59,528 bases of DNA from an uncultured Granulosicoccaceae bacterium (lineage in GTDB: Bacteria > Pseudomonadota > Gammaproteobacteria > Granulosicoccales > Granulosicoccaceae), in the NCBI GenBank assembly GCA_937922015.1, contig CAKZVB010000010.1, positions 1 through 59,528 of the forward strand, written 5' to 3'. Below are positions 15,750-31,991 of this stretch, piece after piece. A model generated the notes under the pieces. That model ran no database searches. It was not told the origin of the DNA and saw only the letters and a list, made by a program, of their open reading frames with translations. The translations under genes were made by a program, and so were the position numbers. How positions within the stretch are numbered: the stretch's first letter is position 1; each line of letters begins with the position of its first letter.

Positions 15750-15786
15750 TGTTGTTCCTCAATAATTTTTTACAGCTTAAACGAAG

Positions 15787-15815: not shown

Positions 15816-15875
15816 TTACCTGCGGCCTGAATCACGCAATTAATCTTATCCGTGGTCCGGGCATTGTGCTGTAGA

Positions 15876-16901: not shown

Positions 16902-19301
16902 TTACATGCGTACCCGCGATTTATCCGGATCGTAAAACGGATAGTTCACCACTTTAGCCAGCAGGCGTTTTTGATGACCATCAAGCTTGCCGACTTCTAC
17001 TTCAGTACCTGCTTCTGTGTATTCAACTGACATTCTGCACAGAGCGATGTTCTTTGATAATACGGGCGACTTTGTGCCGCTGGTGATGACTCCTATTTGC
17101 TGACGTCCGATATGGACACAGTCGCCGTGCTCGGCTATTTCATCACCGGATAATTCAAGACCAACCAGTTTTCTCTGTGGATGCTCTTTTTTCAATAATA
17201 ATGCATCGCGACCAATGAAGTCGTCGGTTTTGCTTTTGAGTGGTACGGTGAACGAAATACCTGCCTCATAGGGGTCGGTTTCGTCGGTGAATTCGTAATT
17301 GGCGAATATCAGACCCGCTTCGATACGCAGTGTATCAAGGGCCTCGAGTCCCAGCGGAGTGATGTCGTGTGGCTTACCCGCTTCCATTACGGCATCCCAT
17401 ACTTCATTGCCGTCTTTGGGATGGCACCAGACTTCATAACCCAGTTCACCGGTATAGCCTGTGCGGGACACCAATAACGGCACACCGTGTTCATGGCCCA
17501 GTCTTGCGACTGAAAAGCGAAACCAGGCAAGGTCTTTTACCGGTGTCTGATCGGGGCGTGTCCAGATTATGTCGGAGAGTACATCGCGACTCTTCGGGCC
17601 TTGTACCTGCAGATTGTGTAATTGATCGGTGGCTGATTTTACCCAGCAATTCAAGCCCATCCTGCCGGCTTGTTCTCTTAACCACAGGCCGCTGATATCT
17701 GAGCCGCCGACCCATCGGAAATTGGTCTCGCACATTCTAAAGATGGTGCCATCGTCTACCATGCCCCCGTTTTCGTAACACATGGCGGTGTAGACGACTT
17801 GTCCCGGGGACAGCTTTTTAACGTCGCGGGTTACACAGTGTTGCAGTAACTTTTCTGCATCTGGCCCGAGGATTTCATACTTTCGCAGTGGAGATAAATC
17901 AGTGACAACAACACCTTCACGACAGGCCCAGTATTCGTTTACCGGTCCGTGGTTATTAAACCGGTTAGCAAGCCAGTAACCATTGTATTCGGTGAAGTTG
18001 CTGGTGAGCTTTGAAGTTCTATCGTGAAAAGCGGTTTCTTTGGTCAGTTGTGGATCAGCATCAGCAGTCATTCTAAAAGCCACCGCAGTAGAGAATTTAT
18101 TTTTGGCAGGGTATACACGCACGTGTATATCTGTAGGGTTCCAGCCGTTTGCCGGATCGATATCATCGGGGCAGGCAGAAGAGATACAAACAAGATCTTT
18201 TAACGCTTTTAACAACACATAGTCACCCGGTCGCGACCAGGGTTCGTCACCCAGAAGCTGGTTGTGTTCATCAACGGCGGTGTTAAAAAAGAAGTTCATC
18301 GCCATCCAGCCGGGGCGTGGTGCGATGTCAAATTCAGCCAGCGCGTGGTTGAAATTGTCTGAGCAGTTGACGTGTCCGGGGTAGCCTGCATCGTCGTAGT
18401 ATTTGGCCGTGCAGGCCAGGCCAAAGGTGTCGTGTCTGCCACAGGTGTCCTGTATGACCTCGACCATCGCCTGCATATCCTGATCATAAAATTTGGCGTG
18501 CAGGCCCGGCTGCGGGTAGGCGCTGGTCATCAGGGTTCGAGTGGTGGTGGCGTCAAGGCAGCGTTCTGTGCCTTCAGCGAGTTGCGCCATATCGAAACAC
18601 TGAAAATCACTGCACTCGCGTCCTTCAACATCGATAATCTGGATATAGTCGCCGGCGTTAACGGTAAAGACTTTGGCGGTGCGTCGTTCAACCCTCATGT
18701 CCAGAGACATATCTGCCAGCGGTTCCGGGAGTACGGGTTCTGCAGGTTCGGTCGGGTTGGCTCTTTCAATAAAGACGATCAGGTCAGTCGGCGGCAGTTG
18801 TTCGTGAACCAGCATGTCGGTCGCGGGCGCTGCAATAATACAACTCAGTGCTTGCTCGGCTGTTGCGTGGTAGCTGTGGCCGGCTGTAGTCTGACCCTGC
18901 ATCACTGTGGCTGGTTTGATGTCGGCCGGGTTGATGTTTCGTCTTTTCAGACCTGCGAGTACTTTGTTGAGACTGTCTTTGGTAGCGGGGTTGCTGGCTG
19001 AGCTTAACATTTTGCCTGTGTGCCGGCCTGCAGACGATGGTGTGTCTGAACTGAGTGCTTCGTTACACGCTGAACCAGAACTGTCGAATGCGGCTACTTC
19101 ACACGTTTGCAGTCCTTCAGGATCAACCACCTGTATTTTGTCGCCGGACTTAAGGTCAATGACTAATATGCCGCCTGCTACCAGAAGGTGCCTTTCTGTG
19201 CCTGCGGGCAGAGTAGGTACACCGGGCTTTATAACACCCGACACGCTTGGTACTGGCGAGCCTGATAATCCAGACGCTACGAGTCCGTGCGGCATGTTCA
19301 T
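16902..19301 (-). CDS. tdm: TMAO demethylase (TMAO aldolase)
   Basis: 799 residues. This enzyme splits trimethylamine N-oxide into dimethylamine and formaldehyde. The architecture matches known Tdm: an N-terminal half with the DUF1989 zinc domain (about residues 205-395, with VEGRECSDFQCFD and likely zinc ligands in DTCGRHDTFGLAC and CISSACPDD), then a GcvT-like tetrahydrofolate-binding domain (about 435-799, with ILGPDAEKLLQHCVTRDV, RTGYTGELGYEVW and LRIEAGLIFANYEF) thought to capture the formaldehyde. The N-terminal 200 residues look like a second, partial DUF1989-like copy (GDKIQVVDPEGLQTCEV). Its start overlaps the gntR stop by four bases, so regulator and enzyme are translated together. 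Confidence 0.93.
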   Translation of the reverse strand: MNMPHGLVASGLSGSPVPSVSGVIKPGVPTLPAGTERHLLVAGGILVIDLKSGDKIQVVDPEGLQTCEVAAFDSSGSACNEALSSDTPSSAGRHTGKMLSSASNPATKDSLNKVLAGLKRRNINPADIKPATVMQGQTTAGHSYHATAEQALSCIIAAPATDMLVHEQLPPTDLIVFIERANPTEPAEPVLPEPLADMSLDMRVERRTAKVFTVNAGDYIQIIDVEGRECSDFQCFDMAQLAEGTERCLDATTTRTLMTSAYPQPGLHAKFYDQDMQAMVEVIQDTCGRHDTFGLACTAKYYDDAGYPGHVNCSDNFNHALAEFDIAPRPGWMAMNFFFNTAVDEHNQLLGDEPWSRPGDYVLLKALKDLVCISSACPDDIDPANGWNPTDIHVRVYPAKNKFSTAVAFRMTADADPQLTKETAFHDRTSKLTSNFTEYNGYWLANRFNNHGPVNEYWACREGVVVTDLSPLRKYEILGPDAEKLLQHCVTRDVKKLSPGQVVYTAMCYENGGMVDDGTIFRMCETNFRWVGGSDISGLWLREQAGRMGLNCWVKSATDQLHNLQVQGPKSRDVLSDIIWTRPDQTPVKDLAWFRFSVARLGHEHGVPLLVSRTGYTGELGYEVWCHPKDGNEVWDAVMEAGKPHDITPLGLEALDTLRIEAGLIFANYEFTDETDPYEAGISFTVPLKSKTDDFIGRDALLLKKEHPQRKLVGLELSGDEIAEHGDCVHIGRQQIGVITSGTKSPVLSKNIALCRMSVEYTEAGTEVEVGKLDGHQKRLLAKVVNYPFYDPDKSRVRM

Positions 19302-19996
19302 CTGCTGGCTCCGATCAGATCGTCTCGTGCCTTGTCCAGATGATTTATGCAGTGGCGTTGTGCGCTGTCTGCATCGCGGCTGACAACGGCCTCGTAGATT
19401 GAACGGTGCTGAAGGTTATATTTTTCAATTTGCGATGCAGTGAGAATTTGATCTTTCATCGCACTCCATTGCCGGTGAGAGCGAACATCATTGATGTGCT
19501 GGCACAGCCAGAACATAAGTGCGTTATCTGTGCATTCTGCCAGTGCAAGGTGGAATGCCTGGTCTGCTGCAGTAAATGCCTCAGGGCTGCAATCGTTTTG
19601 CAGATTCTCAAGTAGATCCAGAGATTGTTCCAGCTTACCGAGGTGGATGGCTGTGGCATTAATGACTGCCAGTCTGGCTATTTGAGGTTCCAGCCCCATG
19701 CGTACGTCGATGAGTTCGAGCGGGCTGGTGATGTTGGCAATTTCTGATTCATCAGCGAATGCGCGATGGTTTACAAAGGTGCCTGCACCGATACGGCGCT
19801 GAATAAGATTGAGTTGCTGTAGCTTTTCCATTGCCGCGCGAACTGTACCGCGCGAGCAACCGAATTGTTGCGCGAGTGATCTTTCAGCGGGAAGCCGTTC
19901 ATCGTGGCGGAATTCACCGTTTAGTATTTTTCGTCGCAACTCTGCAGACAAGCTGCCAGCGTCCCCTGAGTAGGTGTTGCCTGTCGCTTCAGACAT
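19298..19996 (-). CDS. GntR-family (FadR-type) transcriptional regulator
   Basis: 232 residues. Winged helix-turn-helix at about 10-80 (LPAERSLAQQFGCSRGTVRAAMEKL, then GAGTFV) and an all-helical FCD effector domain at about 88-225 with metal-ligand candidates in EAFTAADQAFHLALAEC and NLQHRSIYEAV. It is the first gene of the TMAO operon, directly upstream of tdm (ATGA overlap), and faces the divergent glutamine-synthetase-like gene. It therefore probably controls both directions and itself, responding to an amine or a pathway product. A near-ideal operator lies 60 bases upstream. Confidence 0.9.
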   Translation of the reverse strand: MSEATGNTYSGDAGSLSAELRRKILNGEFRHDERLPAERSLAQQFGCSRGTVRAAMEKLQQLNLIQRRIGAGTFVNHRAFADESEIANITSPLELIDVRMGLEPQIARLAVINATAIHLGKLEQSLDLLENLQNDCSPEAFTAADQAFHLALAECTDNALMFWLCQHINDVRSHRQWSAMKDQILTASQIEKYNLQHRSIYEAVVSRDADSAQRHCINHLDKARDDLIGASR

Positions 19997-20349: not shown

Positions 20350-21828
20350 ATGACAGATCTAGACAAGTACGTCAGTGCTGCAGGCCGCGACAAGATGGTC
20401 AAAGATGTGCGTAAAAAAATCGACCAGCTCGGCATAACCTATATCTATTACCAATTCATTTCCGTCACCGGACGTATTGTTGGTAAAGGTATTCCTGCCA
20501 ACCACTGGGAGCGCACTGCAGAAAAAGGGTTCCAGTTGGTGTACGGCTCTACTGCAAACCTTTTTACCAATCGTGCCGGAGAATATATCGGTTACGGGCC
20601 GGAGTCATCAGAACTTGTCGGTATCCCTGATCCGGAAACTTTTTGTCAGTTGCCGTGGGATAAGAGAATTGCACGTGTCTATTGTGTTTGTTTCCGCAAC
20701 CGTGAAGAGAAGGAAAATCCGGGTGGTCATCTAACATCAGACTGTCGAGGCAATCTGATCTTTCAGCACGCGGCTTTTAAGAAGAAGCACAAGATGGATA
20801 TGCGTTGCGGTACTGAGCCTGAAATGATGTGGCTTAAGAAAGGCGACGATGGCAAAGCCAACGGTGGTTTTTCCAATCCTTATTGTTATCACATTGATCA
20901 ATTTGAATCGCTTCGTCCGGTATTCATGAGAGTGCTTGAATATTCTCAGGCGATGGGCCTCGACATGATCCAGGGTGATCACGAAGACGCACCGGGCCAG
21001 CTTGAAATGAACTGGATGTTTGACGATGTACTGCGTAATGCAGACAGGCTGTCAACCTATCGTCAGATCTGCGCGCAGGTGGCACGGGAGTTTGATCTTA
21101 TAGCCTGCTTTATGACTAAACCGTTTATGGGAGTCTCTGCATCGGGTTGTCATCACAATACCTCGCTGTGGAAAGGCGGCAAGGATGTGGTGAATAAAAT
21201 TGTCTACGATAAACCGGGTGATCTTCCCGGAATGCCGGGGGTGTTCACGTATCGCGAAGGTGGCACCAATACCTTTATGCCTGATGGTAAAAAAGACCAG
21301 CAAAAGCCCGGGCAGATTGGTTTGTGGGCAATAGGCGGAACCATGAAACACATCAACGCGATGACGGCAATTGGCTGCTCGACAGTAAATTCGTATCGAC
21401 GATTGTGGGATACCGGATTCTGGGCGCCTGTATTTGCAGACTGGGGTTACCAGAACAGAACCACAGGTATGCGGGTATCTGCACCGGGCCGGTTTGAATT
21501 TCGTTCAGTAGATTCAATGGTCAACCCCTATCTGATGGGCTCTGCAATTCTTGCGGCATTTGAAGACGGCATCGTTAACAAGACTGATCCGGGTGAGCCG
21601 GAAGAGCGTAACATTTACGCTGCGATGGATGCCGGTAAAGAAGTTAAGAAATTGCCAATGTCACTGGGCGATGCGCTGGTGGCACTTGAGAATGACGACG
21701 TCATTAGAGCTTCTATGCCTGATGAGATGTACAAAGTGTTTTCCGAGTACAAGACAGACGAATGGGAGAACTTTATGGCTACAGTCACTGACTGGGATAC
21801 TGATACCTACATGGACTGCCTGCCTTAG
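20350..21828 (+). CDS. Glutamine-synthetase-family gamma-glutamyl ligase, divergent (module 1)
   Basis: 492 residues with a strong AGGGGG ribosome site. The glutamine synthetase catalytic fold is clear: CGTEPEMMW, QGDHEDAPGQLEMNW (metal-binding Glu/His), GCHHNTSLW and the closing GRFEFRSVDSMVNPYL. It differs from the GmaS at 30684-31991 by about 57 extra residues, including inserts around FRNREEKENPGGH and after KGGKDVVNKI, and by different residues around the amine pocket. It heads an operon with GlxB/C/D-type glutamate-synthase-like proteins. The family ligates glutamate to an amine using ATP. Which amine is used (ammonia, methylamine, dimethylamine or other) is unknown. Its place directly opposite tdm suggests a dimethylamine or nitrogen-recycling role, which is inference. 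Confidence 0.8.
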   Translation: MTDLDKYVSAAGRDKMVKDVRKKIDQLGITYIYYQFISVTGRIVGKGIPANHWERTAEKGFQLVYGSTANLFTNRAGEYIGYGPESSELVGIPDPETFCQLPWDKRIARVYCVCFRNREEKENPGGHLTSDCRGNLIFQHAAFKKKHKMDMRCGTEPEMMWLKKGDDGKANGGFSNPYCYHIDQFESLRPVFMRVLEYSQAMGLDMIQGDHEDAPGQLEMNWMFDDVLRNADRLSTYRQICAQVAREFDLIACFMTKPFMGVSASGCHHNTSLWKGGKDVVNKIVYDKPGDLPGMPGVFTYREGGTNTFMPDGKKDQQKPGQIGLWAIGGTMKHINAMTAIGCSTVNSYRRLWDTGFWAPVFADWGYQNRTTGMRVSAPGRFEFRSVDSMVNPYLMGSAILAAFEDGIVNKTDPGEPEERNIYAAMDAGKEVKKLPMSLGDALVALENDDVIRASMPDEMYKVFSEYKTDEWENFMATVTDWDTDTYMDCLP

Positions 21829-21849
21829 CTGATTTGCAGGCCCACTGCG

Positions 21850-21889
21850 CCTGCTGTGCTTATACGCATGGCAGGTGCAGCCTTTTTTT
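21850..21889 (+). terminator. Possible attenuator hairpin between ligase and glxB
   Basis: CCTGCTGTGC and GCATGGCAGG pair (two G-T wobbles) around TTATAC, and a run of seven T follows at 21883-21889, seven bases after the stem. It may partly terminate transcription so that the ligase is made in excess of the downstream genes. The gap between stem and T-run weakens the call. Confidence 0.4.
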
Positions 21890-21920
21890 CATAAAGTAAC
21901 TGACTAATGGAGGGTATGCC

Positions 21921-22856
21921 ATGTGTGGCATCGCCGGACTGATACATCGCGGTTCAAGCGCTGATATCGGGTCACAAATGACCTCGATGTTGCAGGCGTT
22001 AAAACACCGCGGACCAGACTCAACGGGTTTTGCGTTATACGGGCAGGAGCCGACAAAAGACTATGTGATGCGTTTTAAAGTTGCCGAACAGGAAGACCTG
22101 GCCACAGGCTTTGATATTCACGATGAAATTAAAGCTCGAATGACAACAGTTGATGAACGACTCAAAGAGTTGGGTGTCACTATAAAAAATACCGAGCAGG
22201 TCACTGAGTATGCATTGAGATATACCTTTAGCCATGAAGGTGATTTAAAACGTGTGATTGACTTTGTCGAAGACATAGAAGGTGTTGAGATTCTGTCAAT
22301 CGGTCACGCGCTTGAGCTGATCAAAGACATGGGCGATGCGACCGTCGTGTCCGAGCAGTACAAGCTGGGTGGTTTTAACGGCACTCATGCAATTGGTCAC
22401 ACCAGAATGGCAACCGAGTCTGATGTTGATATTCGCTCAGCACACCCGTATTGGGCGTATCCGTTTAACGACGTGTCTGTAGTTCATAACGGTCAACTCA
22501 CCAACTACTGGTCAAACCGTCGCGATCTTGAACGGCGCGGTCACCGGTTTATGTCTGACTGTGACTCCGAGCTTATCGCGGTGTATATCGCTCACCGGAT
22601 AGACGAGGGTGATGATCTGCACACAGCGATGAGCCGATCTGTAGATATGTTAGATGGTGTATTCACTTATCTGGTCGCCACCGCTGACTCTCTTGGTATG
22701 GCTAAAGATGTAATGGCAGCCAAACCCATGGTGCTTTACGAAAGCGATGAACTAATAGCACTGGCTTCGGAAGAAGTCGCAATTCGCAGCATTTTTCCAC
22801 ATGAAATAGATACGTTTGATCCTTACGAGGGGGAGGTTCGGGTATGGCAGAGCTAA
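21921..22856 (+). CDS. glxB: GlxB/MgsA-type glutamine amidotransferase subunit (module 1)
   Basis: 311 residues. Class II amidotransferase domain with the N-terminal nucleophile Cys2 (MCGIAGL), HRGPDSTG, IGHTRMATES and VVHNGQLTNYW, corresponding to the glutaminase part of glutamate synthase and to N-methylglutamate synthase subunit A. It would hydrolyse an amide, glutamine or gamma-glutamylalkylamide, and pass the amine to the synthase core. An insertion of about 70 residues (about 55-125) is shared in position with the module 2 homologue. It overlaps the next gene by 13 bases. The symbol is given by family, since the true substrate is unproven. Confidence 0.82.
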   Translation: MCGIAGLIHRGSSADIGSQMTSMLQALKHRGPDSTGFALYGQEPTKDYVMRFKVAEQEDLATGFDIHDEIKARMTTVDERLKELGVTIKNTEQVTEYALRYTFSHEGDLKRVIDFVEDIEGVEILSIGHALELIKDMGDATVVSEQYKLGGFNGTHAIGHTRMATESDVDIRSAHPYWAYPFNDVSVVHNGQLTNYWSNRRDLERRGHRFMSDCDSELIAVYIAHRIDEGDDLHTAMSRSVDMLDGVFTYLVATADSLGMAKDVMAAKPMVLYESDELIALASEEVAIRSIFPHEIDTFDPYEGEVRVWQS

Positions 22857-23689
22857 ATTCAGATCACGAGTCACACAAGCTTGGTATGCATACCGAGCAA
22901 CTTGCCGGTCGAACACAACAGGTTTTTTTCTCTCCGTCTGCGGAAGAAAACTTTACCTACCCTGATGGTATTAATGTCGACTTTGCGAAAGAAACAGAAT
23001 TCGACGCGGGTTCTATGGAAATTCGCGACGTCAATCGTAAACTTCGGGAATTGATGAAAGAGGGCTACGGCACAATTACCATCAGAAACCCGGGTGCAAA
23101 ACACTCACTCGGGGTCGGAATTCTCAACCGTTTAAACCTCAATTTTGATGGCAGTCTTGGCTACTTTGGCTGTGGGCTGTGTGATGGCCCCAACATACGC
23201 ATCAGTGGCCGTGTCGGCTGGTCATGCGCTGAAAACATGATGGCCGGTACGATTGTCGTTGAAAAAAATGCCGGCTCTACCTTCGGTGCAGCAATACGTG
23301 GTGGTGATCTGGTTTGTATGGGAGATGTCGGATCCCGTACCGGGATTGATCAGAAAGGCGGCACCATTATCGTCGGTGGTCGTTCAGGTGCATTCTCCGG
23401 TTTTATGATGCAGCGTGGCCGCATGATCATACTGGGAGATGCAGGTAAAAACCTGGGTGACTCCATGTATGACGGCACTATCTTTGTGGGTGGCAAAATT
23501 GAAGACCTGGGAGTCGATGCCATAGAGGGTGAGATCACTGATACTGAAGTCAAGTGGCTTGAGGCCAAGCTGGGTTTGTATGGCCTGGAGGCACCCAATG
23601 GTGTGAAAAACCTGACCAAGATTGTAGCCGGCAAGCAATTGTGGAACTACGACAATCTAGAACCTTCCGAAAAGAAGCTGGTGCTTTAG
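22844..23689 (+). CDS. glxC: GlxC/MgsB-type GXGXG-domain subunit (module 1)
   Basis: 281 residues. The C-terminal 220 form the right-handed beta-helix (GXGXG) domain found at the end of glutamate synthase large subunits, with repeating Gly-rich turns (GRVGWSCAENMMAGTIVVEK, GDLVCMGDVGSRTG, GGRSGAFSGFMMQRGRM). It matches N-methylglutamate synthase subunit B but is 56 residues longer than the module 2 copy, with an extra N-terminus and a C-terminal extension ending in KKLVL. It forms the structural core linking amidotransferase and FMN subunits. Confidence 0.82.
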   Translation: MAELNSDHESHKLGMHTEQLAGRTQQVFFSPSAEENFTYPDGINVDFAKETEFDAGSMEIRDVNRKLRELMKEGYGTITIRNPGAKHSLGVGILNRLNLNFDGSLGYFGCGLCDGPNIRISGRVGWSCAENMMAGTIVVEKNAGSTFGAAIRGGDLVCMGDVGSRTGIDQKGGTIIVGGRSGAFSGFMMQRGRMIILGDAGKNLGDSMYDGTIFVGGKIEDLGVDAIEGEITDTEVKWLEAKLGLYGLEAPNGVKNLTKIVAGKQLWNYDNLEPSEKKLVL

Positions 23690-23712
23690 ACAGCGCGAGC
23701 AGAGGATTTCAA

Positions 23713-25047
23713 ATGACAAATAGAAATAAAGAAGTTATCGGTCAGAGTTTCATGTTTCCGCCGCATGTGATCGACGATATTCATATCAAGGCAGAGCTTG
23801 GTCGATACCGGATGCGTGGGTTTTCTTTGTTTAAGAAAATACCCTCATGGGACGACCTGACTTTTCTTCCCGGTACCTTAACCCGTTTTGTAATTGAGGG
23901 TTATCGGGAAAAGTGTATTACCAAAACCGTACTTGGCCCGCGTGCCAAGCGCCCACTCGAGCTGGACATCCCTGTTTACATTACAGGTATGAGCTTTGGT
24001 GCACTGAGCTTCGAGGCAAAAACCGCGCTGGCACGTGGTGCCACCATGGCAGGTACGGCAACCTGTTCAGGTGAAGGCGGCATGATCCCCGATGAACGCC
24101 GTTTCTCGGAGAAATGGTTTTATCAATGTATCCAGTCGCGTTATGGATTTAACCCTCACCACCTGCGTTTAGCCGATGCCTGTGAATTTTTTATCGGTCA
24201 GGGCTGCAAGGTAGGTCTCGGTGGTCACCTGATGGGACAAAAAGTAACCGACCAGGTGGCGGAGATGCGTTCACTGCCAGCTGGGATTGATCAGCGTTCA
24301 CCGGCTCGCCATCCCGACTGGCTTGGCCCCGATGATCTGGCGTTAAAAATACAGGAAGTCCGTGAAGCCACTAATTGGGAAATTCCCATTCAGTTAAAGC
24401 TTGGTGCTGCGCGCGTATACGATGATGTTCGCATGGCGGCCAAGTGTGACCCTGACATGATCTACATCGATGGTATGGAAGGAGGCACAGGTGCCGGACC
24501 TCACATTGCAACAGAAGAAACCGGTGTGCCGGGTATCGCTGCCATCAGGCAGGCGCGCAAAGCACTGGACGATGTAGGAAAATCCGGTGAAATATCTCTG
24601 GTATACGCAGGTGGTATAAGAAACGGTGGCGATTTAGCCAAGGCTATTGCACTGGGTGCGGATGCCGTGGCTATTGGTCACTCTTCGCTGATGGCGCTTA
24701 ACTGCAACAAAGATATTCCTGAAGCCGATTATCCAAAGGAGATGGGAATTGAAGCCGGCCATTGTTATCACTGTCATACCGGGCGTTGTCCTGTAGGGGT
24801 GGCAACACAAGACCCGTTGTTACGTGCCCGCCTGGATCCTGATGCCGCTGCAGAGCGTGTGTACAATTTTCTGCACACCCTGACCATCGAAGCACAACTG
24901 CTGGCCCGTGCCTGTGGCAAAACCTATATGCATTCATTGGAGCCGGAAGATCTGGCGGCACTGACAATGGAAGCATCTGCACTGGCGCAGGTACCTTTGG
25001 CAGGTTCACAACACACTGTCGGTCGTCCCGACATGACTCGTTACTAG
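23713..25047 (+). CDS. glxD: GlxD/MgsC-type FMN glutamate-synthase-like subunit with Cys cluster (module 1)
   Basis: 444 residues from the ATG at 23713 (AGAGG site upstream). The longer frame from 23641 overlaps glxC and is rejected. The FMN-binding glutamate synthase barrel is marked by YITGMSFGALSFEAK, GEGGMIPDER, DGMEGGTGAGP and YAGGIRNGGDLAKAIALGADAV. CYHCHTGRCPVGVATQDP keeps three cysteines (351, 354 and 359), which correspond to the [3Fe-4S] ligands of true glutamate synthases. The module 2 homologue has lost them. It would reduce the imino intermediate formed from 2-oxoglutarate and the amine, giving glutamate or an N-substituted glutamate. Confidence 0.85.
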   Translation: MTNRNKEVIGQSFMFPPHVIDDIHIKAELGRYRMRGFSLFKKIPSWDDLTFLPGTLTRFVIEGYREKCITKTVLGPRAKRPLELDIPVYITGMSFGALSFEAKTALARGATMAGTATCSGEGGMIPDERRFSEKWFYQCIQSRYGFNPHHLRLADACEFFIGQGCKVGLGGHLMGQKVTDQVAEMRSLPAGIDQRSPARHPDWLGPDDLALKIQEVREATNWEIPIQLKLGAARVYDDVRMAAKCDPDMIYIDGMEGGTGAGPHIATEETGVPGIAAIRQARKALDDVGKSGEISLVYAGGIRNGGDLAKAIALGADAVAIGHSSLMALNCNKDIPEADYPKEMGIEAGHCYHCHTGRCPVGVATQDPLLRARLDPDAAAERVYNFLHTLTIEAQLLARACGKTYMHSLEPEDLAALTMEASALAQVPLAGSQHTVGRPDMTRY

Positions 25048-25056
25048 GAGAACAAC

Positions 25057-25443
25057 ATGGCTAACGAAGATATTGATCACTTCATCAATACCGATGGTCT
25101 TGACTCAGAGCGCGAGAAAACCATTGGTCAGCATATTGGTTATCGTTACGACGTAAATCTGGTTCCTGACTACAGTCGCATCACGCCGTTTCTAACAAAA
25201 TATATGGAAACGATGGGCTGGAAAGATCTTAACTGGCTTGAAGATGTGCACATGGGTTACGAAGAAAGCCGTGCCGCGGTATTTGATCGCAACATTAACG
25301 GATGGGTGACTGTGCCGGAAGAGATGACCCTGCCGGACAATCAGCAGGACCGGGACATGATCGCAAGAGAGCTGTTAATCAAGTTTCAAATGTCTCCTGC
25401 GCATCCAATGGTTGAGCTTAACAAGGCCTATGCTAAGTTCTAA
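25057..25443 (+). CDS. Unknown 128-aa protein, last gene of module 1
   Basis: I do not recognise this family. It is a soluble, acidic protein of 128 residues with no signal peptide or membrane helix. It starts nine bases after glxD with a GGAG site and is followed at once by a terminator, so it belongs to the module 1 operon. Recognisable traits are IGYRYDVNLVPDYSRITPFL, a Trp-rich middle (MGWKDLNWLEDVHMGYEESRA), INGWVTVPEEM and a Met/His/Pro stretch (KFQMSPAHPMVELN). No counterpart exists in module 2, so it marks whatever is specific to module 1. It may be a subunit or a regulator. Confidence 0.75.
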   Translation: MANEDIDHFINTDGLDSEREKTIGQHIGYRYDVNLVPDYSRITPFLTKYMETMGWKDLNWLEDVHMGYEESRAAVFDRNINGWVTVPEEMTLPDNQQDRDMIARELLIKFQMSPAHPMVELNKAYAKF

Positions 25444-25452
25444 CGGTTAATC

Positions 25453-25485
25453 GGCTGGCAGCAGCAATCTGCCAGTCTGGTTTTT
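25453..25485 (+). terminator. Rho-independent terminator of module 1
   Basis: Arms GGCTGGCAG and CTGCCAGTC (one G-T pair) enclose a seven-base loop and are followed by TGGTTTTTA. It lies ten bases after the stop of the 128-aa protein and separates module 1 from the Amt gene. Confidence 0.75.
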
Positions 25486-25969
25486 ATGTAAGCGTATATC
25501 AGGCTAAAGTTCATGTGCGTCGCCTCATGAATAATGCAGGGATTGCTGTTTTACAATCCCTTTTACCAGACCATGCCGGATAGCCCCGCGCGTCATAGTG
25601 CGTGCCTGCAGATCGACTGGCCGATTGTCGATTGTCGATCGAAATTGTGGCAATCACAATTGGACGTGAGAGCCACTTAGGCAGAGAATTCCAGCTTGCC
25701 GTGGCTGATTCATGGCATGAGTAAGGGTATTTTGTCATTCCTGCTTCGACATTGATCCACAATACCCTTGCTAAATGCTGTCCCCTAATAAATACTGGTG
25801 GGGTAAATGAAAGCGCTGGAAAAAGCGCTATTTGCGTAAATCGGTGTTGATCGGCTTAGCGAACAAAAATGTCCTGTTCAGACAGTCCTGAATCGTTTCG
25901 GTTAACACCCATTGCATTGCCGTCAGGCAAATAACAGTGTATCCATACGGACAAAACAGGGGAAAGTCT
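25486..25969. other. Long structured leader region upstream of amt
   Basis: No convincing gene. Several inverted repeats are present: AATTGTG/CACAATT at 25643-25661, AAGGGTATT/AATACCCTT at 25723-25731 and 25761-25769, and two copies of AGCGCT at 25812-25829. Tandem GATTGTC heptamers lie near 25623-25636. The region must hold the amt promoter, and the repeats may be binding sites or a folded leader. Confidence 0.45.
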
Positions 25970-27469
25970 ATGAATGAAGAAGCAGTGCAAGCCGCGATCG
26001 ATGCAGCGCTTGCCGGCCATACAACCATCAACCTGGAGATCTACTACTGGTGGTGTACGGCCCTGATGATTGCCATCCATGCGGGCTTTCTAGCCTACGA
26101 AATGGGGGCTTCACGAAGTAAAAACGCACTGGCGTCCGGTGTAAAGAATATTCTCGCTTTTGCCTTTATGATTCCGACCTTCTTTGCCTTCGGTTGGTTT
26201 ATTTACCTCTCTTTCTATAACTGGCAGCCATTTGCTGAAGGCTTTTCGTTGCTCGGCTCGATAGATGTGGCCGGTGACGGGCAGGGTGGTGTTCCTTGGA
26301 GTGCAGGCATGGGGCCGAATCTGCAGGATCAGGCTACCGGCGTATTCTGGGCGGCCTTTACCTTATTTGCCTGTACTACGGCTTCTATCTACTCTGGTGC
26401 CGTTATCGAAAGAATCAAACTCAGTGCCTTTATTATCACAGCGGTTTTTCTTGGCTCTGTGGTGTGGATTATCGGTGCTGCCTGGGGCTGGCACCCGGCT
26501 GGCTGGATGGTCGTGGAGTGGGGCTACCGTGATGTAGCGGCTGCCGGTGTGGTGCATACCATCGCGGGCTTTTTTGCACTGGGTATTTTAATTCCTCTCG
26601 GACCTCGTATTGGCAAATACAACGCCGACGGCTCGGCCAATGATCTGCGCGGCCACAATATGCCGTTAACGGTTGTTGGACTGATGCTGATTATCCTGGG
26701 CTTCTTTGGCTTCCTGGGCGCGTGCCTGATTTATGATCCGGCCGCTCAGTGGGTTAACATTTACGGTATTCCATCCAATCTTTCTGCTTTTGTTTTTAAT
26801 ACGCTGATGGGTATGGCCGGTGGTATTATCGGTGCCTACTTCCTGACTCGCGATCCGTTCTGGATGATGTCCGGTGCGCTGGGTGGTATTTTTTCGGTAG
26901 CAGCGGGACTGGATCTGTTTTATCCGCCTCTGGCCTTCCTGTTAGGTTTTGTGGGTGGTTGCCTGATTCCAATAGCGGCAAAAGCGATTGAAAAAATGGG
27001 TATCGATGACGCTGTCGGCGCTGTTGCTGTCCACGGTGTGTGTGGTGTCTGGGGTATTCTCGCAGTAGGAATCTTTTGCGCCGGTTATCCTGGTGTAGGC
27101 GATATTCCTGCGATCAGCTTTATAGGTCAGCTTAAGGGGGCTGTTGTAATGATGTTGCTCGGCTTTGTACCTGCTCTGGTGCTGGGTTACCTGCTGCGGA
27201 TGTTCGGCTTACTGCGCGTGCGTAACGAAGTTGAATTACTCGGATTGGACCCCGCAGAAATTCCATCAATCGGTTATCCGGAATTCGCAGTGTGGGCTGA
27301 AGAAGTAGAACCTGCTCGCGGTTTACAGCGAAGCTACCGGGATGATCCACCACCCAGACGTGATGACGTTCCACCCAGACGTGACGACATTCCACCAAGG
27401 CGTGACGACACCACGCGAGGCCGACCGGCTTATCCGGAACGTCCACAACCACCTACCAGGAGACAATAA
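25970..27469 (+). CDS. amt: Amt/Mep/Rh-family ammonium (or methylammonium) transporter
   Basis: 499 residues from the ATG at 25970, which has an AGGGGAAAG ribosome site. Eleven hydrophobic segments are evident, with an external N-terminus and no signal peptide. The twin pore histidines are in VVHTIAGFF and AVHGVCGVWG, and Phe/Trp gate residues are present around ASIYSGAVIER. After the last helix a cytoplasmic tail of about 85 residues ends in three 7-residue repeats (PPRRDD plus V, I or T) and a Pro/Arg-rich end, far from the usual Amt tail that GlnK binds. It sits between two amine-assimilation modules, so it may import methylamine or recapture ammonia. No glnK is adjacent. Confidence 0.9.
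   Translation: MNEEAVQAAIDAALAGHTTINLEIYYWWCTALMIAIHAGFLAYEMGASRSKNALASGVKNILAFAFMIPTFFAFGWFIYLSFYNWQPFAEGFSLLGSIDVAGDGQGGVPWSAGMGPNLQDQATGVFWAAFTLFACTTASIYSGAVIERIKLSAFIITAVFLGSVVWIIGAAWGWHPAGWMVVEWGYRDVAAAGVVHTIAGFFALGILIPLGPRIGKYNADGSANDLRGHNMPLTVVGLMLIILGFFGFLGACLIYDPAAQWVNIYGIPSNLSAFVFNTLMGMAGGIIGAYFLTRDPFWMMSGALGGIFSVAAGLDLFYPPLAFLLGFVGGCLIPIAAKAIEKMGIDDAVGAVAVHGVCGVWGILAVGIFCAGYPGVGDIPAISFIGQLKGAVVMMLLGFVPALVLGYLLRMFGLLRVRNEVELLGLDPAEIPSIGYPEFAVWAEEVEPARGLQRSYRDDPPPRRDDVPPRRDDIPPRRDDTTRGRPAYPERPQPPTRRQ
27350..27412 (+). repeat. Three 21-bp in-frame repeats in the amt tail
   Basis: Units begin at 27350, 27371 and 27392 (CCACCCAGACGTGA-type) and encode PPRRDD plus one hydrophobic or Thr residue. 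The spacing is exactly 21 bases, so the reading frame is kept in any copy number. Confidence 0.85.
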
Positions 27470-27471
27470 AA

Positions 27472-27648
27472 ATGAACTCGAGTCCTGTTGAAGCAATGGA
27501 AGGTGCTGCGGCAATTTTTACCTTCGCAAACAATCCCGGTATGCTCCAGACCATCTTCTGGGTCATGTGTGCAGTATTGGTGGTGGTGGTAGTATCCAGC
27601 ATCATTCATGAAATACGTGTCGGGTCAAAAGTCGCCAGACGAAGATAA
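27472..27648 (+). CDS. 58-aa single-span membrane microprotein downstream of amt
   Basis: A short gene starting two bases after the amt stop codon. It encodes 58 residues: a polar amphipathic N-terminus (MNSSPVEAMEGAAA), one strong transmembrane helix (about 26-45, rich in Val) and a basic tail (GSKVARRR), suggesting a cytoplasmic C-terminus by the positive-inside rule. A GGAG motif lies within the end of amt. A terminator follows, making amt plus this gene a two-gene unit. It is probably an accessory or stabilising subunit of the transporter. No family is recognised. Confidence 0.75.
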   Translation: MNSSPVEAMEGAAAIFTFANNPGMLQTIFWVMCAVLVVVVVSSIIHEIRVGSKVARRR

Positions 27649-27661
27649 CTTTACTGGCAGA

Positions 27662-27694
27662 AAGGGCCCCGGCATTGCCGGGGCCTTATCTTTT
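27662..27694 (+). terminator. Rho-independent terminator after amt and the microprotein
   Basis: GGCCCCGGC (27665-27673) and GCCGGGGCC (27677-27685) form a perfect nine-pair stem with an ATT loop, followed by TTATCTTTT. It ends only 26 bases before mgsA, so module 2 has either a very short promoter or depends on read-through. Confidence 0.85.
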
Positions 27695-27720
27695 GCACTA
27701 ACTAAAATCGAAGTGGCACT

Positions 27721-28620
27721 ATGTGTGGAATAGTCGGTCTCTATATTAAAAACCCGGAGCTCGAGCAGTCGCTTGGTGTACACGTCGCGGCGATGTTGCT
27801 GGAAATGTCAGAACGTGGTCCCGACAGCGCCGGTGCCGCAGTGTATCGCAACGACGTTGGTGATGGTCGTTTGAAACTGACTCTGCTGTCTGATGATGCA
27901 AATCCAGACTGGTCGGCGTTTGAAAAATCATTACTTGAAAATATTGATTCACAGGGGGTTGTCACACCGCTGCTAAACCATGCGGTGGTCAGTGCGGCGT
28001 CATCGCTTGAGTCGTTACAGCACTGGCTTAAAGACAACTATCCACAAATCAGGGTAAATAGCTCTGGTCAGAAAATAGAAATATTCAAAGAGAAAGGGTC
28101 ACCACAGGAGTTTATAGAGAACTTCGGTGTCGCCAGCTATACCGGCAGTCATGCGTTGGGTCACACCAGAATGGCCACTGAGAGCGCGGTTACTACAGAG
28201 CATTCTCATCCATTTTCAACCGGTGACGATCTCTGTCTGGTGCATAACGGTTCATTATCAAATCACAACAGGCTGCGCGAGAAACTACAGTCTTACGGCA
28301 TCAGTTTTCAAACCGACAATGACAGTGAAGTGGCGGCGGGCTATTTGTCGTGGCGCTTGCAGGAAGGCGACGGTCTGGACGATGCGCTGCATCATGCGAT
28401 CGAAGACCTCGATGGCTTTTACACTTTTGCCATTGGTACTAAAGACGGTTTTGCCGTATTGCGAGATCCTATCGGATGTAAACCTGCCATTATGGCTGAA
28501 ACAGATGACTGGGCGGCGATGTCTTCAGAGTATCGCGCGATAGCTCAATTGCCGGGTGCTAAAAACGCCAGAATCTGGGAGCCCGAGCCGGCGCAAATTT
28601 ACAGCTGGCAGAGGGGCTAG
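27721..28620 (+). CDS. mgsA: N-methylglutamate synthase, amidotransferase subunit A
   Basis: 299 residues. Class II glutamine amidotransferase with N-terminal nucleophile Cys2 (MCGIVGLY), SERGPDSAG, LGHTRMATES and LVHNGSLSNH. In the N-methylglutamate pathway this subunit releases the amine from its donor for the synthase. It is the first gene of mgsABC-gmaS. The module 1 homologue is similar in layout but clearly divergent. The ATG follows the upstream terminator closely and no strong ribosome site is visible. Confidence 0.85.
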   Translation: MCGIVGLYIKNPELEQSLGVHVAAMLLEMSERGPDSAGAAVYRNDVGDGRLKLTLLSDDANPDWSAFEKSLLENIDSQGVVTPLLNHAVVSAASSLESLQHWLKDNYPQIRVNSSGQKIEIFKEKGSPQEFIENFGVASYTGSHALGHTRMATESAVTTEHSHPFSTGDDLCLVHNGSLSNHNRLREKLQSYGISFQTDNDSEVAAGYLSWRLQEGDGLDDALHHAIEDLDGFYTFAIGTKDGFAVLRDPIGCKPAIMAETDDWAAMSSEYRAIAQLPGAKNARIWEPEPAQIYSWQRG

Positions 28621-28623
28621 AAC

Positions 28624-29301
28624 GTGCAGACAATTGACGTGTCCGTCGAGGGCATACGAACACTAAACCAGCTATTGCATACTGAAGATCATACCGGTGC
28701 TATTGAAGTTCAAAATCCCAATGGTCGTCATTCGATTGCAGTCGGTGCAACTATACCGGTTGACGTCACCGTGAACGGGCATGTGGGTTACTACTGTGCG
28801 GGGATGAACCAGCACGCTAATATTCAGGTTAACGGTAATGCCGGCCCGGGTCTGGCTGAAAACATGATGTCGGGCCAGGTGCGTGTCACCGGTGATGCTT
28901 CTCAATACTGTGGTGCTACCGCTCACGGCGGTTTGTTGGTGGTGCAGGGCAATGCCGCTGCGCGTTGTGGTATCTCCATGAAGGGTGTTGATATTGTCGT
29001 TGGTGGCAACGTCGGTCACATGTCTGCCTTTATGGCACAAACCGGTCGCCTGGTGATCTGCGGTGATGCCGGTGACGCACTGGGTGATTCAATCTATGAA
29101 GCCCGAATCTATGTCAAAGGGCTGGTTAAAAGTACCGGTGCAGATTGCGAACTGAAAGAAATGCGTGATGAACATCTTGAAGAACTGACGCAACTACTGG
29201 CAGCGGCCAACATAACAGAGCACAGTGCGAAGGACTTCCGTCGTTATGGCTCGGCCCGAAAGCTCTATCATTTTAATATCGACAACGCCAATGCATACTA
29301 G
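28624..29301 (+). CDS. mgsB: N-methylglutamate synthase, GXGXG subunit B
   Basis: 225 residues starting at GTG three bases after mgsA. It consists almost wholly of the Gly-rich beta-helix domain (GHVGYYCAGMNQHANIQVNG, AENMMSGQVRVTGDAS, GGNVGHMSAFMAQTGRLVICGDAG), like the C-terminal domain of glutamate synthase. It lacks the N- and C-terminal extensions of the module 1 copy. It assembles with MgsA and MgsC. Confidence 0.86.
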   Translation: MQTIDVSVEGIRTLNQLLHTEDHTGAIEVQNPNGRHSIAVGATIPVDVTVNGHVGYYCAGMNQHANIQVNGNAGPGLAENMMSGQVRVTGDASQYCGATAHGGLLVVQGNAAARCGISMKGVDIVVGGNVGHMSAFMAQTGRLVICGDAGDALGDSIYEARIYVKGLVKSTGADCELKEMRDEHLEELTQLLAAANITEHSAKDFRRYGSARKLYHFNIDNANAY

Positions 29302-29318
29302 AACCGGAATGGTGGCTA

Positions 29319-30641
29319 ATGACTGATGACTATCACTCAAGGCTGAGAGAGTCAGCTACTTTTCCACGTCACGTCATCGCAGAGATACAGCGTGCGGCCC
29401 GGGAGGGTATTTATGATATCCGCGGCTTTGGTGCCAAGCGGCGTGTGCCTGACTTTGATGATCTGTTGTTCCTTGGTGCCAGTATGTCCCGTTATCCGCT
29501 TGAAGGCTACCGCGAAACCTGTGATACCAGTGTCACACTGGGTGCGCGCTTTACCAAAAAGCCCATCGAACTGAAAATACCTATTACCATCGCAGGCATG
29601 AGCTTTGGTGCGCTGTCAGCTCAGGCCAAAGAAGCACTTGGCCGTGGTGCCAGTGCAATGGGTACCAGTACCACGACCGGTGATGGCGGTATGACCCCTG
29701 AAGAGCGCGGTCATTCTGATCTGCTGGTCTATCAGTATTTACCGTCGCGTTATGGCATGAACCCGGATGATCTGCGTAAGGCCGATGCCATTGAAATTGT
29801 AGTCGGGCAGGGTGCCAAGCCGGGAGGTGGTGGCATGCTGTTAGGGATGAAAATCAGTGAACGCGTGGCCGGTATGCGTGACCTTCCGGAAGGTATTGAT
29901 CAACGCAGCGCCTGCCGCCATCCCGACTGGACAGGCCCCGATGATCTGGAAATAAAAATAAACGAGCTTCGCGAAATAACAGACTGGCAGATACCCATCT
30001 ACGCAAAGATAGGTGCATCGCGGCCTTATTTCGATACCGCGCTCGCAGTTAAGTCAGGTGCCGACGTCGTGGTACTGGATGGCATGCAGGGCGGCACCGC
30101 TGCAACGCAGGATGTCTTTATTGAACATGTCGGCATACCAACACTGCCTGCGGTACGCATGGCGGTAGATGCGCTTAAAGAACTGGACATGCATCGCAAG
30201 GTGCAACTGATCGTATCCGGTGGGATACGCAGCGGTGCTGATGTTGCGAAAGCGCTGGCACTGGGCGCAGACGCTGTATCTATAGGGACAGCGGCATTGA
30301 TCGCGCTTGGTGATAACAGCCCTGAACATGAAGAGGAATACCGCAAGCTTGGAACCTCTGCCGGGTACTACGATGACTGGCAGGATGGCAAAGACCCGGC
30401 GGGTATTTGCACACAAGATCCAGAGCTTGCGGCGCGGCTTGATCCGGAACTTGGCGGGCGTCGCCTGGCAAATTATTTAAGCTGTCTGACACTCGAGACT
30501 CAAACACTGGCCAGAGCCTGCGGTAAAAGCCATGTGCACAATCTTGAGCCGGAAGATCTTGTGGCACTGACAGTAGAGTCGGCGGCCATGGCGGGCGTGC
30601 CACTTGCGGGCACACAGTGGATACCGGGCAGCGGGTACTAG
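29319..30641 (+). CDS. mgsC: N-methylglutamate synthase, FMN subunit C
   Basis: 440 residues. FMN-dependent glutamate-synthase-like barrel: ITIAGMSFGALSAQAKEAL, GDGGMTPEERGHSDLL, LDGMQGGTAATQD and VSGGIRSGADVAKALALGADAVSIG. Where module 1 has a Cys-rich [3Fe-4S]-type motif, this protein reads YYDDWQDGKDPAGICTQDP with no paired cysteines, so it should carry FMN only. It combines 2-oxoglutarate with methylamine equivalents and reduces the product to N-methylglutamate. It lies 17 bases after mgsB. Confidence 0.88.
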   Translation: MTDDYHSRLRESATFPRHVIAEIQRAAREGIYDIRGFGAKRRVPDFDDLLFLGASMSRYPLEGYRETCDTSVTLGARFTKKPIELKIPITIAGMSFGALSAQAKEALGRGASAMGTSTTTGDGGMTPEERGHSDLLVYQYLPSRYGMNPDDLRKADAIEIVVGQGAKPGGGGMLLGMKISERVAGMRDLPEGIDQRSACRHPDWTGPDDLEIKINELREITDWQIPIYAKIGASRPYFDTALAVKSGADVVVLDGMQGGTAATQDVFIEHVGIPTLPAVRMAVDALKELDMHRKVQLIVSGGIRSGADVAKALALGADAVSIGTAALIALGDNSPEHEEEYRKLGTSAGYYDDWQDGKDPAGICTQDPELAARLDPELGGRRLANYLSCLTLETQTLARACGKSHVHNLEPEDLVALTVESAAMAGVPLAGTQWIPGSGY

Positions 30642-30683
30642 GCTGGTTTCTAAACACACTTATTAAAACTCGGGAAAAGCAAA

Positions 30684-31991
30684 GTGGCAAAAGATCTGGA
30701 GAAGTGGGCTAACACCAAAAAGGTAAAATACTTTCTGATCAGCTTTGTTGATCTATTTGGTGTTTTGCGTGCCAAGCTGGTACCGACACGCGCCATAAAA
30801 GGTATGCAGAAGGATGGTGCCGGTTTCGCAGGCTTTGCCTCCTATCTCGATATGACACCCGCCCACCCCGATATGTTTGCCATCCCTGATGCAGACAGTG
30901 TTATTCAGTTGCCCTGGAAGCCGGAAGTCGCATGGGTCGCGGCCGACCTGTGGATGGATGGCAAAGAAGTTGAGGCATCACCGCGGGTGGCATTAAAAAG
31001 GCAGCTGGCGAAAGCGCAAAAGCTGGGCTACCGCATGAAGACAGGTGTCGAGTGCGAGTACTTTTTAATCAACAACGACGCAACCGCAATATACGACTCC
31101 ACAGACACACAAGCCAAACCCTGTTATGACCAGCAGGCACTGATGCGTCGATACCCGGTCATCAGTGAGATCTGCGATGCAATGATCGACATGGGCTGGG
31201 GACCGTACCAGAACGACCACGAAGACGCCAATGGTCAGTTTGAGATGAACTGGGACTACGACGACGCCCTGAAGACCGCTGATCGGCATGTGTTCTTTAA
31301 GTACATGGTTAAAACCGTCGCCGAAAACCACGGAATGCGCGCCACCTTTATGCCCAAGCCATTTGCCAATCTGACCGGTAATGGCTGTCATGCTCACGTG
31401 TCGATCTGGGATAAGGCAGGTAAAAAGAATCTCTTTTTAGACAAAAAGGATGATCTCGGTTTATCACCGCTTGCCTACCAGTTTCTGGGGGGGATTATGG
31501 ACAGCGCCACGGCCCTCTGTGCGGTGTTTAACCCGTCAGTAAACAGCTACAAAAGAATTGGTGCTCCAGTCACCAGTTCAGGTGCAACATGGTCGCCCAA
31601 CTCGGTGACCTACTCAGGTAATAATCGAACCCATATGATTCGCGTACCGGAAGATGGCCGCTTTGAATTGCGCTTGATGGACGGTGCTGCTAATCCGTAT
31701 CTGATGCAGGCCGGTTTTCTCGCGGCGGGGCTTGATGGGATCGAAAATAAACGCGACCCGGGCAAGCCGGTGCATCTGAATATGTATGAGGAAGGCCATA
31801 AGGTCAAAGGCGCTAAAAAGCTGCCGTCAACGCTGCATGATGCACTGCGTTTGTTCGAAAACAGCAAGGTGCTTAGAAACGGTCTTGGCGATGATCTGGT
31901 CAATGCCTACATTAAACTTAAGATGCAGGAATGGGTTGACTATACGTCCCATTTGAGTGAGTGGGAGCGACAGAATACACTTGATTGCTAA
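30684..31991 (+). CDS. gmaS: Gamma-glutamylmethylamide synthetase
   Basis: 435 residues starting at GTG, the standard length of GmaS. It ligates glutamate and monomethylamine with ATP to gamma-glutamylmethylamide. The sequence is of GmaS type throughout: AGFAGFASYLDMTPAHPDMFA, GVECEYFLI, YQNDHEDANGQFEMNWDYDD, TGNGCHAHVSIWD, NRTHMIRVPEDGRFELRLMDGAANPYL. Glutamine synthetase catalytic metal ligands (Glu in VECEYF and GQFEMN) are kept. It follows mgsC by 42 bases, giving the order mgsABC-gmaS, the reverse of the frequent gmaS-mgsABC. No mgdABCD (N-methylglutamate dehydrogenase) follows. Confidence 0.92.
   Translation: MAKDLEKWANTKKVKYFLISFVDLFGVLRAKLVPTRAIKGMQKDGAGFAGFASYLDMTPAHPDMFAIPDADSVIQLPWKPEVAWVAADLWMDGKEVEASPRVALKRQLAKAQKLGYRMKTGVECEYFLINNDATAIYDSTDTQAKPCYDQQALMRRYPVISEICDAMIDMGWGPYQNDHEDANGQFEMNWDYDDALKTADRHVFFKYMVKTVAENHGMRATFMPKPFANLTGNGCHAHVSIWDKAGKKNLFLDKKDDLGLSPLAYQFLGGIMDSATALCAVFNPSVNSYKRIGAPVTSSGATWSPNSVTYSGNNRTHMIRVPEDGRFELRLMDGAANPYLMQAGFLAAGLDGIENKRDPGKPVHLNMYEEGHKVKGAKKLPSTLHDALRLFENSKVLRNGLGDDLVNAYIKLKMQEWVDYTSHLSEWERQNTLDC

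Follow-up and report, generated by a model that had tools for sequence, protein, structure and literature searches.

Gene content of the locus

The window analysed here is a 59,528-nucleotide stretch of DNA (G+C content 50.4%) from an uncultured Granulosicoccaceae bacterium (GenBank assembly GCA_937922015.1, contig CAKZVB010000010.1), and it carries two gene sets, called module 1 and module 2 here, that each encode a glutamine-synthetase-like ligase and a split, glutamate-synthase-like enzyme. Both lie near tdm, the gene for trimethylamine N-oxide (TMAO) demethylase, whose product is dimethylamine (DMA); the amine on which module 1 might act is the subject of this work. From left to right, the genes tmm, those of a betaine-type ATP-binding cassette (ABC) transporter with a GcvT-like gene, tdm and a GntR/FCD regulator gene are followed on the opposite strand by module 1, an Amt-family gene and module 2 (Table 1). 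The regulator gene overlaps tdm by 4 bases and is the direct divergent neighbour of LIG1, the ligase gene of module 1. An original prediction, made from the sequence alone, had described the two modules as adjacent and module 1 as divergent from tdm, and all of the genes were found where it had placed them, with an Amt-family gene between the modules that it had not mentioned and the regulator gene between tdm and module 1.

Sequence comparison identifies module 2 as the mgsABC-gmaS route already known for methylamine, as had been proposed: its four genes match the Paracoccus aminophilus pAMI6 cluster at 51-79%, its ligase passes the TIGR03105 (GmaS) cut-off, and the best PDB match of that ligase, 7cql, is an apo GmaS structure. 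The differences claimed for module 1 were likewise borne out, namely a ligase 57 residues longer (492 against 435 amino acids), a longer GlxC (281 against 225 amino acids in MgsB), a cysteine-containing GlxD and an additional 128-amino-acid protein, encoded by orf128.

Table 1 Features of the window around module 1
Feature	Position	Strand	Basis
tmm, trimethylamine monooxygenase	9846..11186	-	NF058570, 820 bits (cut-off 675)
tmoXVW-like betaine-type ABC transporter (proW-type long permease, proV, proX) with extra GcvT-like gene	11303..16829	-	Profile matches; a similar transporter adjoins tdm in SAR11 loci
tdm, TMAO demethylase	16902..19301	-	NF053776, 1204 bits (cut-off 1100)
GntR/FCD regulator, between tdm and LIG1	19298..19996	-	PF07729, PF00392; kept beside LIG1 in many loci
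LIG1, GmaS-like amine ligase, 492 aa; proposed glutamate-dimethylamine ligase	20350..21828	+	Gln-synt_C; under TIGR03105 and GlnA cut-offs; pocket residues; own clade
glxB1, class II glutamine-amidotransferase subunit	21921..22856	+	GATase_6/7; N-terminal MCGIAG
glxC1, GXGXG domain subunit, 281 aa	22844..23689	+	PF01493
glxD1, glutamate-synthase-domain (FMN) subunit with Fe-S type cysteines	23641..25047	+	PF01645; cysteines align with E. coli GltB
orf128, conserved small protein, fifth cassette gene	25057..25443	+	66-85% identity to 31 homologues
Amt-family transporter, between the modules	25937..27469	+	PF00909; under NCBIfam amt cut-offs
mgsA (module 2)	27721..28620	+	51% to P. aminophilus pAMI6, same order
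mgsB (module 2), 225 aa	28624..29301	+	61% to P. aminophilus
mgsC (module 2), without Fe-S type cysteines	29319..30641	+	79% to P. aminophilus
gmaS (module 2), 435 aa	30684..31991	+	TIGR03105, 677 bits (cut-off 469.6); PDB match 7cql, 622 bits

The module 1 ligase

LIG1 passed no NCBIfam cut-off, scoring 296.7 bits against TIGR03105 (cut-off 469.6) and 235.2 bits against TIGR00653 (GlnA; cut-off 429.15), and it is 29-33% identical to GmaS. We placed it in a tree of 34 glutamine-synthetase-family sequences, which included nine LIG1, six LIG1b, four GmaS and two GlnA sequences and which also served for the comparison of pocket residues. LIG1 (100/98), LIG1b (95/91) and GmaS (100/99) formed separate clades, with GlnA apart; LIG1 lies outside the GmaS clade, and the fork that joins the GmaS side with the LIG1 superclade has modest support (92/78). 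A ligase phylogeny had been suggested with the original prediction as a check on module 1, and no firm grouping of LIG1 with ammonia-specific glutamine synthetases was found in this one.

PMC7948447 lists the residues of RhGmaS that surround methylamine; in GmaS, according to that paper, an Ala replaces the ammonia Asp and a Trp the flap Glu. All seven of these methylamine-pocket residues, together with Trp300, are identical in LIG1, and K46, Y180, Q208, D210, E212, E219, N221 and W358 are invariant in 33 LIG1 sequences. At the column of Asp50 of glutamine synthetase LIG1 has Val, beside an invariant Tyr, and at that of the flap Glu it has Trp; both GlnA rows carry the ammonium Asp and the flap Glu. 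The full set of eight residues occurs in 19 of the 34 rows, which are exactly the LIG1, LIG1b and GmaS rows, while the 15 others include GlnA and PuuA of E. coli, seven further proteins of the family encoded in the window genome, and two relatives of LIG1 from actinobacteria. Because the ammonia residues of glutamine synthetase are gone and the GmaS pocket is kept, ordinary ammonia assimilation by LIG1 is unlikely, and the cut-offs, the residues and the tree led us to reject it as a glutamine synthetase, whether ordinary or of 'type III'. The predicted model of LIG1 has the glutamine synthetase fold, with a GmaS as its best structure match and true glutamine synthetases close behind; its predicted local distance difference test (pLDDT) score is low in the active-site stretches, so we draw no argument about the pocket from it.

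A further ligase of the window genome (G000:C197, locus L004) scores 543 bits, above the TIGR03105 cut-off, and differs from GmaS at two pocket residues; TIGR03105 may therefore also cover enzymes other than GmaS.

Synthase subunits and orf128

The domains of GlxB, GlxC and GlxD of module 1 are those of the three subunits of N-methylglutamate (NMG) synthase, namely an amidotransferase, a GXGXG domain and a synthase domain that binds flavin mononucleotide (FMN), and the MCGI with which class II amidotransferases start is found at the N-terminus of both GlxB1 and MgsA. In all six GlxD1 rows of our alignment, cysteines line up with cysteines of E. coli GltB and one further cysteine is present, and none of the four MgsC rows has cysteines at the GltB-aligned positions. 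We take the aligned GltB cysteines to be ligands of an iron-sulfur (Fe-S) cluster. As GlxD1 keeps cysteines of this type and MgsC does not, module 1 probably needs electrons from outside. The GTG start called for glxD1 overlaps glxC1, and the real start may lie further downstream.

The orf128 protein has no Pfam match, and its PHROG match (E 0.0072) is not significant. Its predicted model (mean pLDDT 76.7) has no fold match in the PDB at E<=0.001, and identification by fold was dropped for this reason.

Distribution and gene neighbourhood of module 1

A scan of named genomes yielded at least 565 LIG1 relatives in at least 594 candidate stretches, of which the best 80 loci, at 73-93% identity, are considered here; counts over these loci refer to the fetched flanks, many of which are cut. 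Pelagibacter-type titles account for 33 of them, and the remainder include SUP05/Thioglobus, Rhodospirillales, Arenicellales and Oceanospirillaceae. Module 1 is thus a conserved cassette in Gammaproteobacteria, SAR11 and other alphaproteobacteria, often adjoining tdm. LIG1 is followed directly by glxB in 77 of the 80 loci; two others (L082 and L096) end at that point, leaving L065 as the sole exception. A search with tblastn found orf128 in 66/80 loci, so that the extra protein of the original prediction is a conserved part of the cassette. An Amt open reading frame (ORF) was found in 52/80 loci and tdm in the flank of 50/80, making tdm the commonest neighbour outside the cassette after Amt. 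The internal order of module 1 is kept in loci of the same genus, and the succession of module 1, Amt and mgs-gmaS recurs in SAR11 loci, which argues that the arrangement is not due to chance. In the SAR11 locus L134, for example, the order is tmoXVW-like, tdm, a 116-amino-acid ORF, FAD442, LIG1, glxB, glxC, glxD, orf135, Amt, mgsA, mgsB, mgsC and gmaS. The mgsABC-gmaS genes lie away from module 1 in several same-genus loci (L038, L040 and L041).

Other neighbours of the cassette point to folate-linked methyl-group metabolism, judging from their sequence families. FAD442 is a SoxB-like member of the DAO family of oxidoreductases and a relative of sarcosine oxidase beta; it has a match of at least 58% in 47/80 loci. 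Genes of the folD type occur in five loci by neighbour clustering (confirmed by scan in L072 and L073), and fhs follows orf128 in L072 (scan) and L069 (by eye). Clustering also placed a soxB-like gene in L059, L065, L091, L126 and L128 (in the scan of L091, 450 bits, under the cut-off of 529), accompanied by soxA- and soxG-like ORFs identified by eye. In 10 SUP05-type loci a BHMT gene lies upstream of the cassette.

Mutual exclusion of module 1 and DmmC in the tdm genomes sampled

We next consider 48 tdm-positive genomes, picked without regard to module 1 from two class samples. The first (15/369) includes the window's own genome and two relatives already known to the analysis, and the second (33/385) is from the class to which G066 belongs, a genome that has LIG1 but no detected tdm. 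Of the 48, 36 carried LIG1 (E<=1e-60), with partial copies at contig ends in G287 and G784. G125 is LIG1-negative and has a glxB-glxC-glxD-orf128 run into a contig end; since this contig end cuts its cassette, we moved G125 to module 1, for a total of 37/48.

The known alternative for DMA is the Dmm monooxygenase system, and the available text of PMC4543880 reports that each P. aminophilus dmm gene mutant failed to grow on DMA as sole carbon and energy source. Taking as DmmC orthologues those proteins with 60-74% identity to P. aminophilus DmmC, itself identified by gene order, we found them in 8/48 genomes (G016, G018, G263, G314, G597, G690, G721 and G748). In total, 37 genomes had module 1 only, eight had DmmC only, none had both and three had neither. 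Fisher's exact test gave p 4.4e-7 for the 48 genomes, 5.2e-7 when the window's genome was left out and 1.6e-6 when restricted to the 41 genomes with a Tdm above the curated NF053776 cut-off, values that are not to be taken literally since the species are still non-independent. On the Tdm tree the Dmm label requires five changes, at least four of which are forced by supported branches, and these several switches indicate that the exclusion does not derive from one ancestral split.

DmmC belongs to PF11927 (DUF3445), which comprises two groups, the DmmC orthologues and paralogues at most 31% identical to DmmC; annotation by PF11927 alone would overcall DMA monooxygenase. Matches occurred in 14/48 tdm genomes, 11 of them strong and three weak (51-59 bits, in G468, G697 and G775). 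G367, G125 and G460 have paralogues only, and G597 has both kinds. Our first scoring, which counted any strong match (E<1e-40), found one in 1/36 LIG1-positive and 10/12 LIG1-negative genomes (p 1.1e-7). Treating PF11927 as one class was dropped because it mixes DmmC with distant paralogues; the crude and the refined scoring are both significant. The second group is represented by L139, L140, L141, L142, L148, L149 and L150 among our loci.

Two further sets, which overlap partly with the 48 genomes and with each other and so are not additive, gave the same picture. Among 25 genomes of the window's family, LIG1 was found in 16 and PF11927 in four, all of them DmmC, with no overlap; the window genome, which is 80.6% complete, has no PF11927 match. 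From the 80 named LIG1 genomes, 50 were hand-picked for spread; we detected no DmmC in them, and their three PF11927 proteins were all paralogues with 26-30% identity to DmmC. No DmmA or DmmB match was present in the 80 LIG1 loci (E<=1e-20) or in the window (E<=1e-5).

Physical linkage could also be read from the tdm genomes. Module 1 lies within 25 kb of tdm in 23/37, on another contig in 13/37 and far away in 1/37, and DmmC lies within 16 kb of tdm in 5/8. FAD442 was found in 30/36 LIG1-positive and 1/12 LIG1-negative genomes, where G287, scored as absent, has a partial copy at a contig end, and GmaS (TIGR03105, E<=1e-140) in 31/36 LIG1-positive genomes. We considered loss of GmaS as a sign of a bypass and set the idea aside: five of the 36 LIG1 genomes lack a match at that threshold, but the same holds for G460 and G697, and no completeness figure is given for these genomes.

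A proposed route for dimethylamine

We consider it probable, on the strength of these sequence comparisons, that module 1 is a DMA-specific variant of the NMG pathway that replaces Dmm. Passages of PMC5520151 report that dmmDABC is absent from all SAR11 representatives, with no evidence at that time of DMA oxidation by SAR11, and propose a 'metabolic bottleneck' in which DMA builds up and feeds marine aerosols. In PMC8918994, TMAO as the only nitrogen source nevertheless supported growth of SAR11 strain HTCC1062, and an unknown DMA enzyme was supposed. Because it excludes DmmC, and because SAR11 is reported to lack dmmDABC yet grows on TMAO, module 1 is the best candidate for the missing DMA step; its presence in SAR11 is read from Pelagibacter-type loci rather than from the HTCC1062 genome. 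To the broader proposal, that SAR11, SUP05 and many marine bacteria use DMA through gamma-glutamylation and reductive transfer to N,N-dimethylglutamate without a monooxygenase, closing the 'DMA bottleneck', we would give an even chance.

Tmm and Tdm convert trimethylamine and TMAO to DMA. With its GmaS-type active site, LIG1 would join DMA and glutamate at the expense of ATP to form gamma-glutamyldimethylamide. After hydrolysis of this amide by GlxB, the amine would reach the FMN centre of GlxD (acting with GlxC) and there be reductively combined with 2-oxoglutarate to N,N-dimethylglutamate; the electrons for GlxD would probably be external and ferredoxin-like, unlike those of the internally balanced NMG synthase. 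N,N-dimethylglutamate would then be converted to NMG and on to glutamate, with the methyl groups passing to folate, through FAD442 as a SoxB-like demethylating enzyme where it is present or through the candidate NMG dehydrogenase. The orf128 protein would be accessory, and the GntR regulator may control tdm and module 1 jointly.

Several observations weigh against this reading. First, the LIG1 pocket residues are all the same as those of GmaS, so that sequence cannot separate DMA from methylamine as the substrate, and RhGmaS itself takes DMA, with its lowest Km for methylamine, in the available text of PMC7948447. Second, three of the 48 tdm genomes (G460, G697 and G773) have neither system. 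G460 and G773 have Tdm-like proteins under the NF053776 cut-off, as do five genomes that were counted (G018, G314, G611, G645 and G784); in G697 the tdm contig is short, and the Tdm of this genome clusters with the Tdm proteins of two module 1 genomes, G468 and G775. Single absences are weak in any case, since many of the genomes are metagenome-assembled or from single cells. Third, module 1 occurs in genomes without detected tdm (G066 and G085), where DMA need therefore not come from Tdm, and L065 has LIG1 beside sox-like genes and mgsABC-gmaS with no glxBCD of its own in view. Lastly, FAD442 was not found in the window genome or in any of the 16 LIG1 genomes of its family (E<=1e-60), and it occurs without LIG1 in the family members G019 and G020 (one copy with an internal stop) and in G597, beside a Rieske oxygenase. 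Being absent from the window's family and present in LIG1-free genomes, FAD442 is not obligatory, and the 0/16 count ruled it out as an obligatory sixth gene of the cassette; it may serve dimethylglycine instead.

The identity of the pockets would also fit a set of monomethylamine isozymes for other conditions, as would the adjacency of the two modules, seen both in the window and in SAR11 loci. We regard this as unlikely given that GmaS is usually kept as well in LIG1-positive tdm genomes, and one would not expect DmmC to be excluded by a mere duplicate of the methylamine route. There is a similarly small chance that module 1 acts on a secondary amine from another source, for example sarcosine or a different N-methyl compound from the route of glycine betaine, and lies near tdm since both feed the folate one-carbon pool. 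The BHMT genes in SUP05-type loci, the kinship of FAD442 with sarcosine oxidase beta, its relative beside the Rieske oxygenase and the cassettes without detected tdm are all compatible with such a role, but the exclusion is with DmmC and is seen among tdm genomes, and the frequency of tdm as a neighbour is second only to that of Amt.

Quite improbable is that module 1 serves as a second pair of glutamine synthetase and glutamate synthase that recaptures methylamine-derived ammonia, fed by the adjacent Amt. The Amt gene and the glutamate-synthase type cysteines of GlxD1 agree with it, whereas in LIG1 the ammonium Asp and the flap Glu are both missing, and the protein scores under the GlnA cut-off and falls outside GlnA; the exclusion of DmmC would moreover be left unexplained, as Dmm genomes would need recapture equally. 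The original prediction had offered a second amine or ammonia recycling for module 1, and the GmaS pocket and the exclusion of DmmC argue for the former, with DMA as the best fit, and disfavour the latter. That LIG1 handles DMA, with the amide demethylated to gamma-glutamylmethylamide for MgsABC and GlxBCD of module 1 in another role, agrees with L065 and with the retention of GmaS in most LIG1 genomes but is very unlikely in view of the glxB gene that directly follows LIG1 in all but one of the loci that extend beyond it.

At L065 (4469-21106), ORFs resembling soxB, soxA and soxG come after LIG1, together with mgsABC-gmaS, and two further weak GmaS matches (25-26%) lie upstream.

Relation to known systems

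Module 1 resembles the system of GmaS, MgsABC and MgdABCD in its ligase of the glutamine synthetase fold, its split three-subunit glutamate-synthase-like enzyme, its pocket residues and, as we propose, its folate-linked demethylation. It differs in that LIG1 is longer, only 29-33% identical and in a separate clade, and in the GlxD1 cysteines, orf128, the linkage to tdm and the exclusion of DmmC. With DmmDABC it would share the gap that is filled after Tdm, to judge from this exclusion, but the proteins are unrelated, and Dmm is an oxygenase where module 1 has an ATP-dependent ligase. GlnA with GltBD has the same fold, reaction logic and Fe-S type cysteines in a synthase subunit, whereas LIG1 lacks Asp50 and the flap Glu. 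The same kinds of genes have been described in SAR11, where glxBCD and glnT (SAR11_1313-1316) were proposed for methylamine in the available text of PMC3160333; the order given there, glxBCD and then glnT, fits module 2, and module 1 is not treated in that text.

The LIG1 superclade also holds LIG1b, which has the full pocket, and actinobacterial relatives. These proteins (38-61% identity; Paracoccus sp. TOH, Ruegeria sp. SCSIO 43209 and Rhodococcus plasmids) differ from module 1 in that no glxBCD match was found in the fetched plasmid stretches, where they adjoin genes for aldehyde dehydrogenase, type 1 amidotransferase, P450 or ABC transporters. LIG1b paralogues (56-61%) occur at L167, L168 and L170, in alphaproteobacteria that also carry LIG1, and the one at L168 lies near ORFs that by eye resemble a spermidine/putrescine-type ABC transporter. 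On the Gordonia sp. KTR9 plasmid pGKT2 (L033, 6001-7131), a 39% relative of LIG1 lies between P450 and FAD oxidoreductase genes, mostly without a listed gene in the incomplete PLSDB table.

A Dmm route has been described in Ruegeria (PMC13390433, in the available text). Our literature search, which covered no preprints and few subscription papers so that a prior description elsewhere is possible, returned no proposal of gamma-glutamyldimethylamide or of a glutamate-dimethylamine ligase; hits for dimethylglutamate or dimethylglutamic acid concerned, by title, mammalian metabolism and fungal peptides only. If the DMA reading is true, module 1 would be an unreported counterpart of DMA monooxygenase and would supply a concrete gene set for the DMA gap of SAR11, which are very abundant ocean bacteria, and as a DMA route it could change estimates of marine DMA emission. 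The breadth of the cassette, which includes SAR11 and SUP05, and its fit to a published gap go beyond the original prediction. For annotation, searches with gmaS as a marker and assignments by PF11927 need checks for look-alikes, LIG1 in the first case and DmmC paralogues in the second.

Additional features of the window

The GcvT-like gene (14568-15749) inside the TMAO transporter cluster is 25% identical to P. aminophilus DmmD and could load formaldehyde onto folate. The Amt-family protein, which may carry methylated ammonium ions, has a C-terminal tail with repeated Pro-Arg-Asp stretches; SAR11 L134 has an Amt in the same slot, followed by a 75-amino-acid ORF. Downstream of module 2, orf196 (32055-32645) has no Pfam or NCBIfam match and lies near module 1 in 14/80 loci, some of them without tdm in view. 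Adjoining tmm, a 997-amino-acid protein (6530-9523) matches a PknB-type Ser/Thr kinase at 155 bits, under the cut-off.

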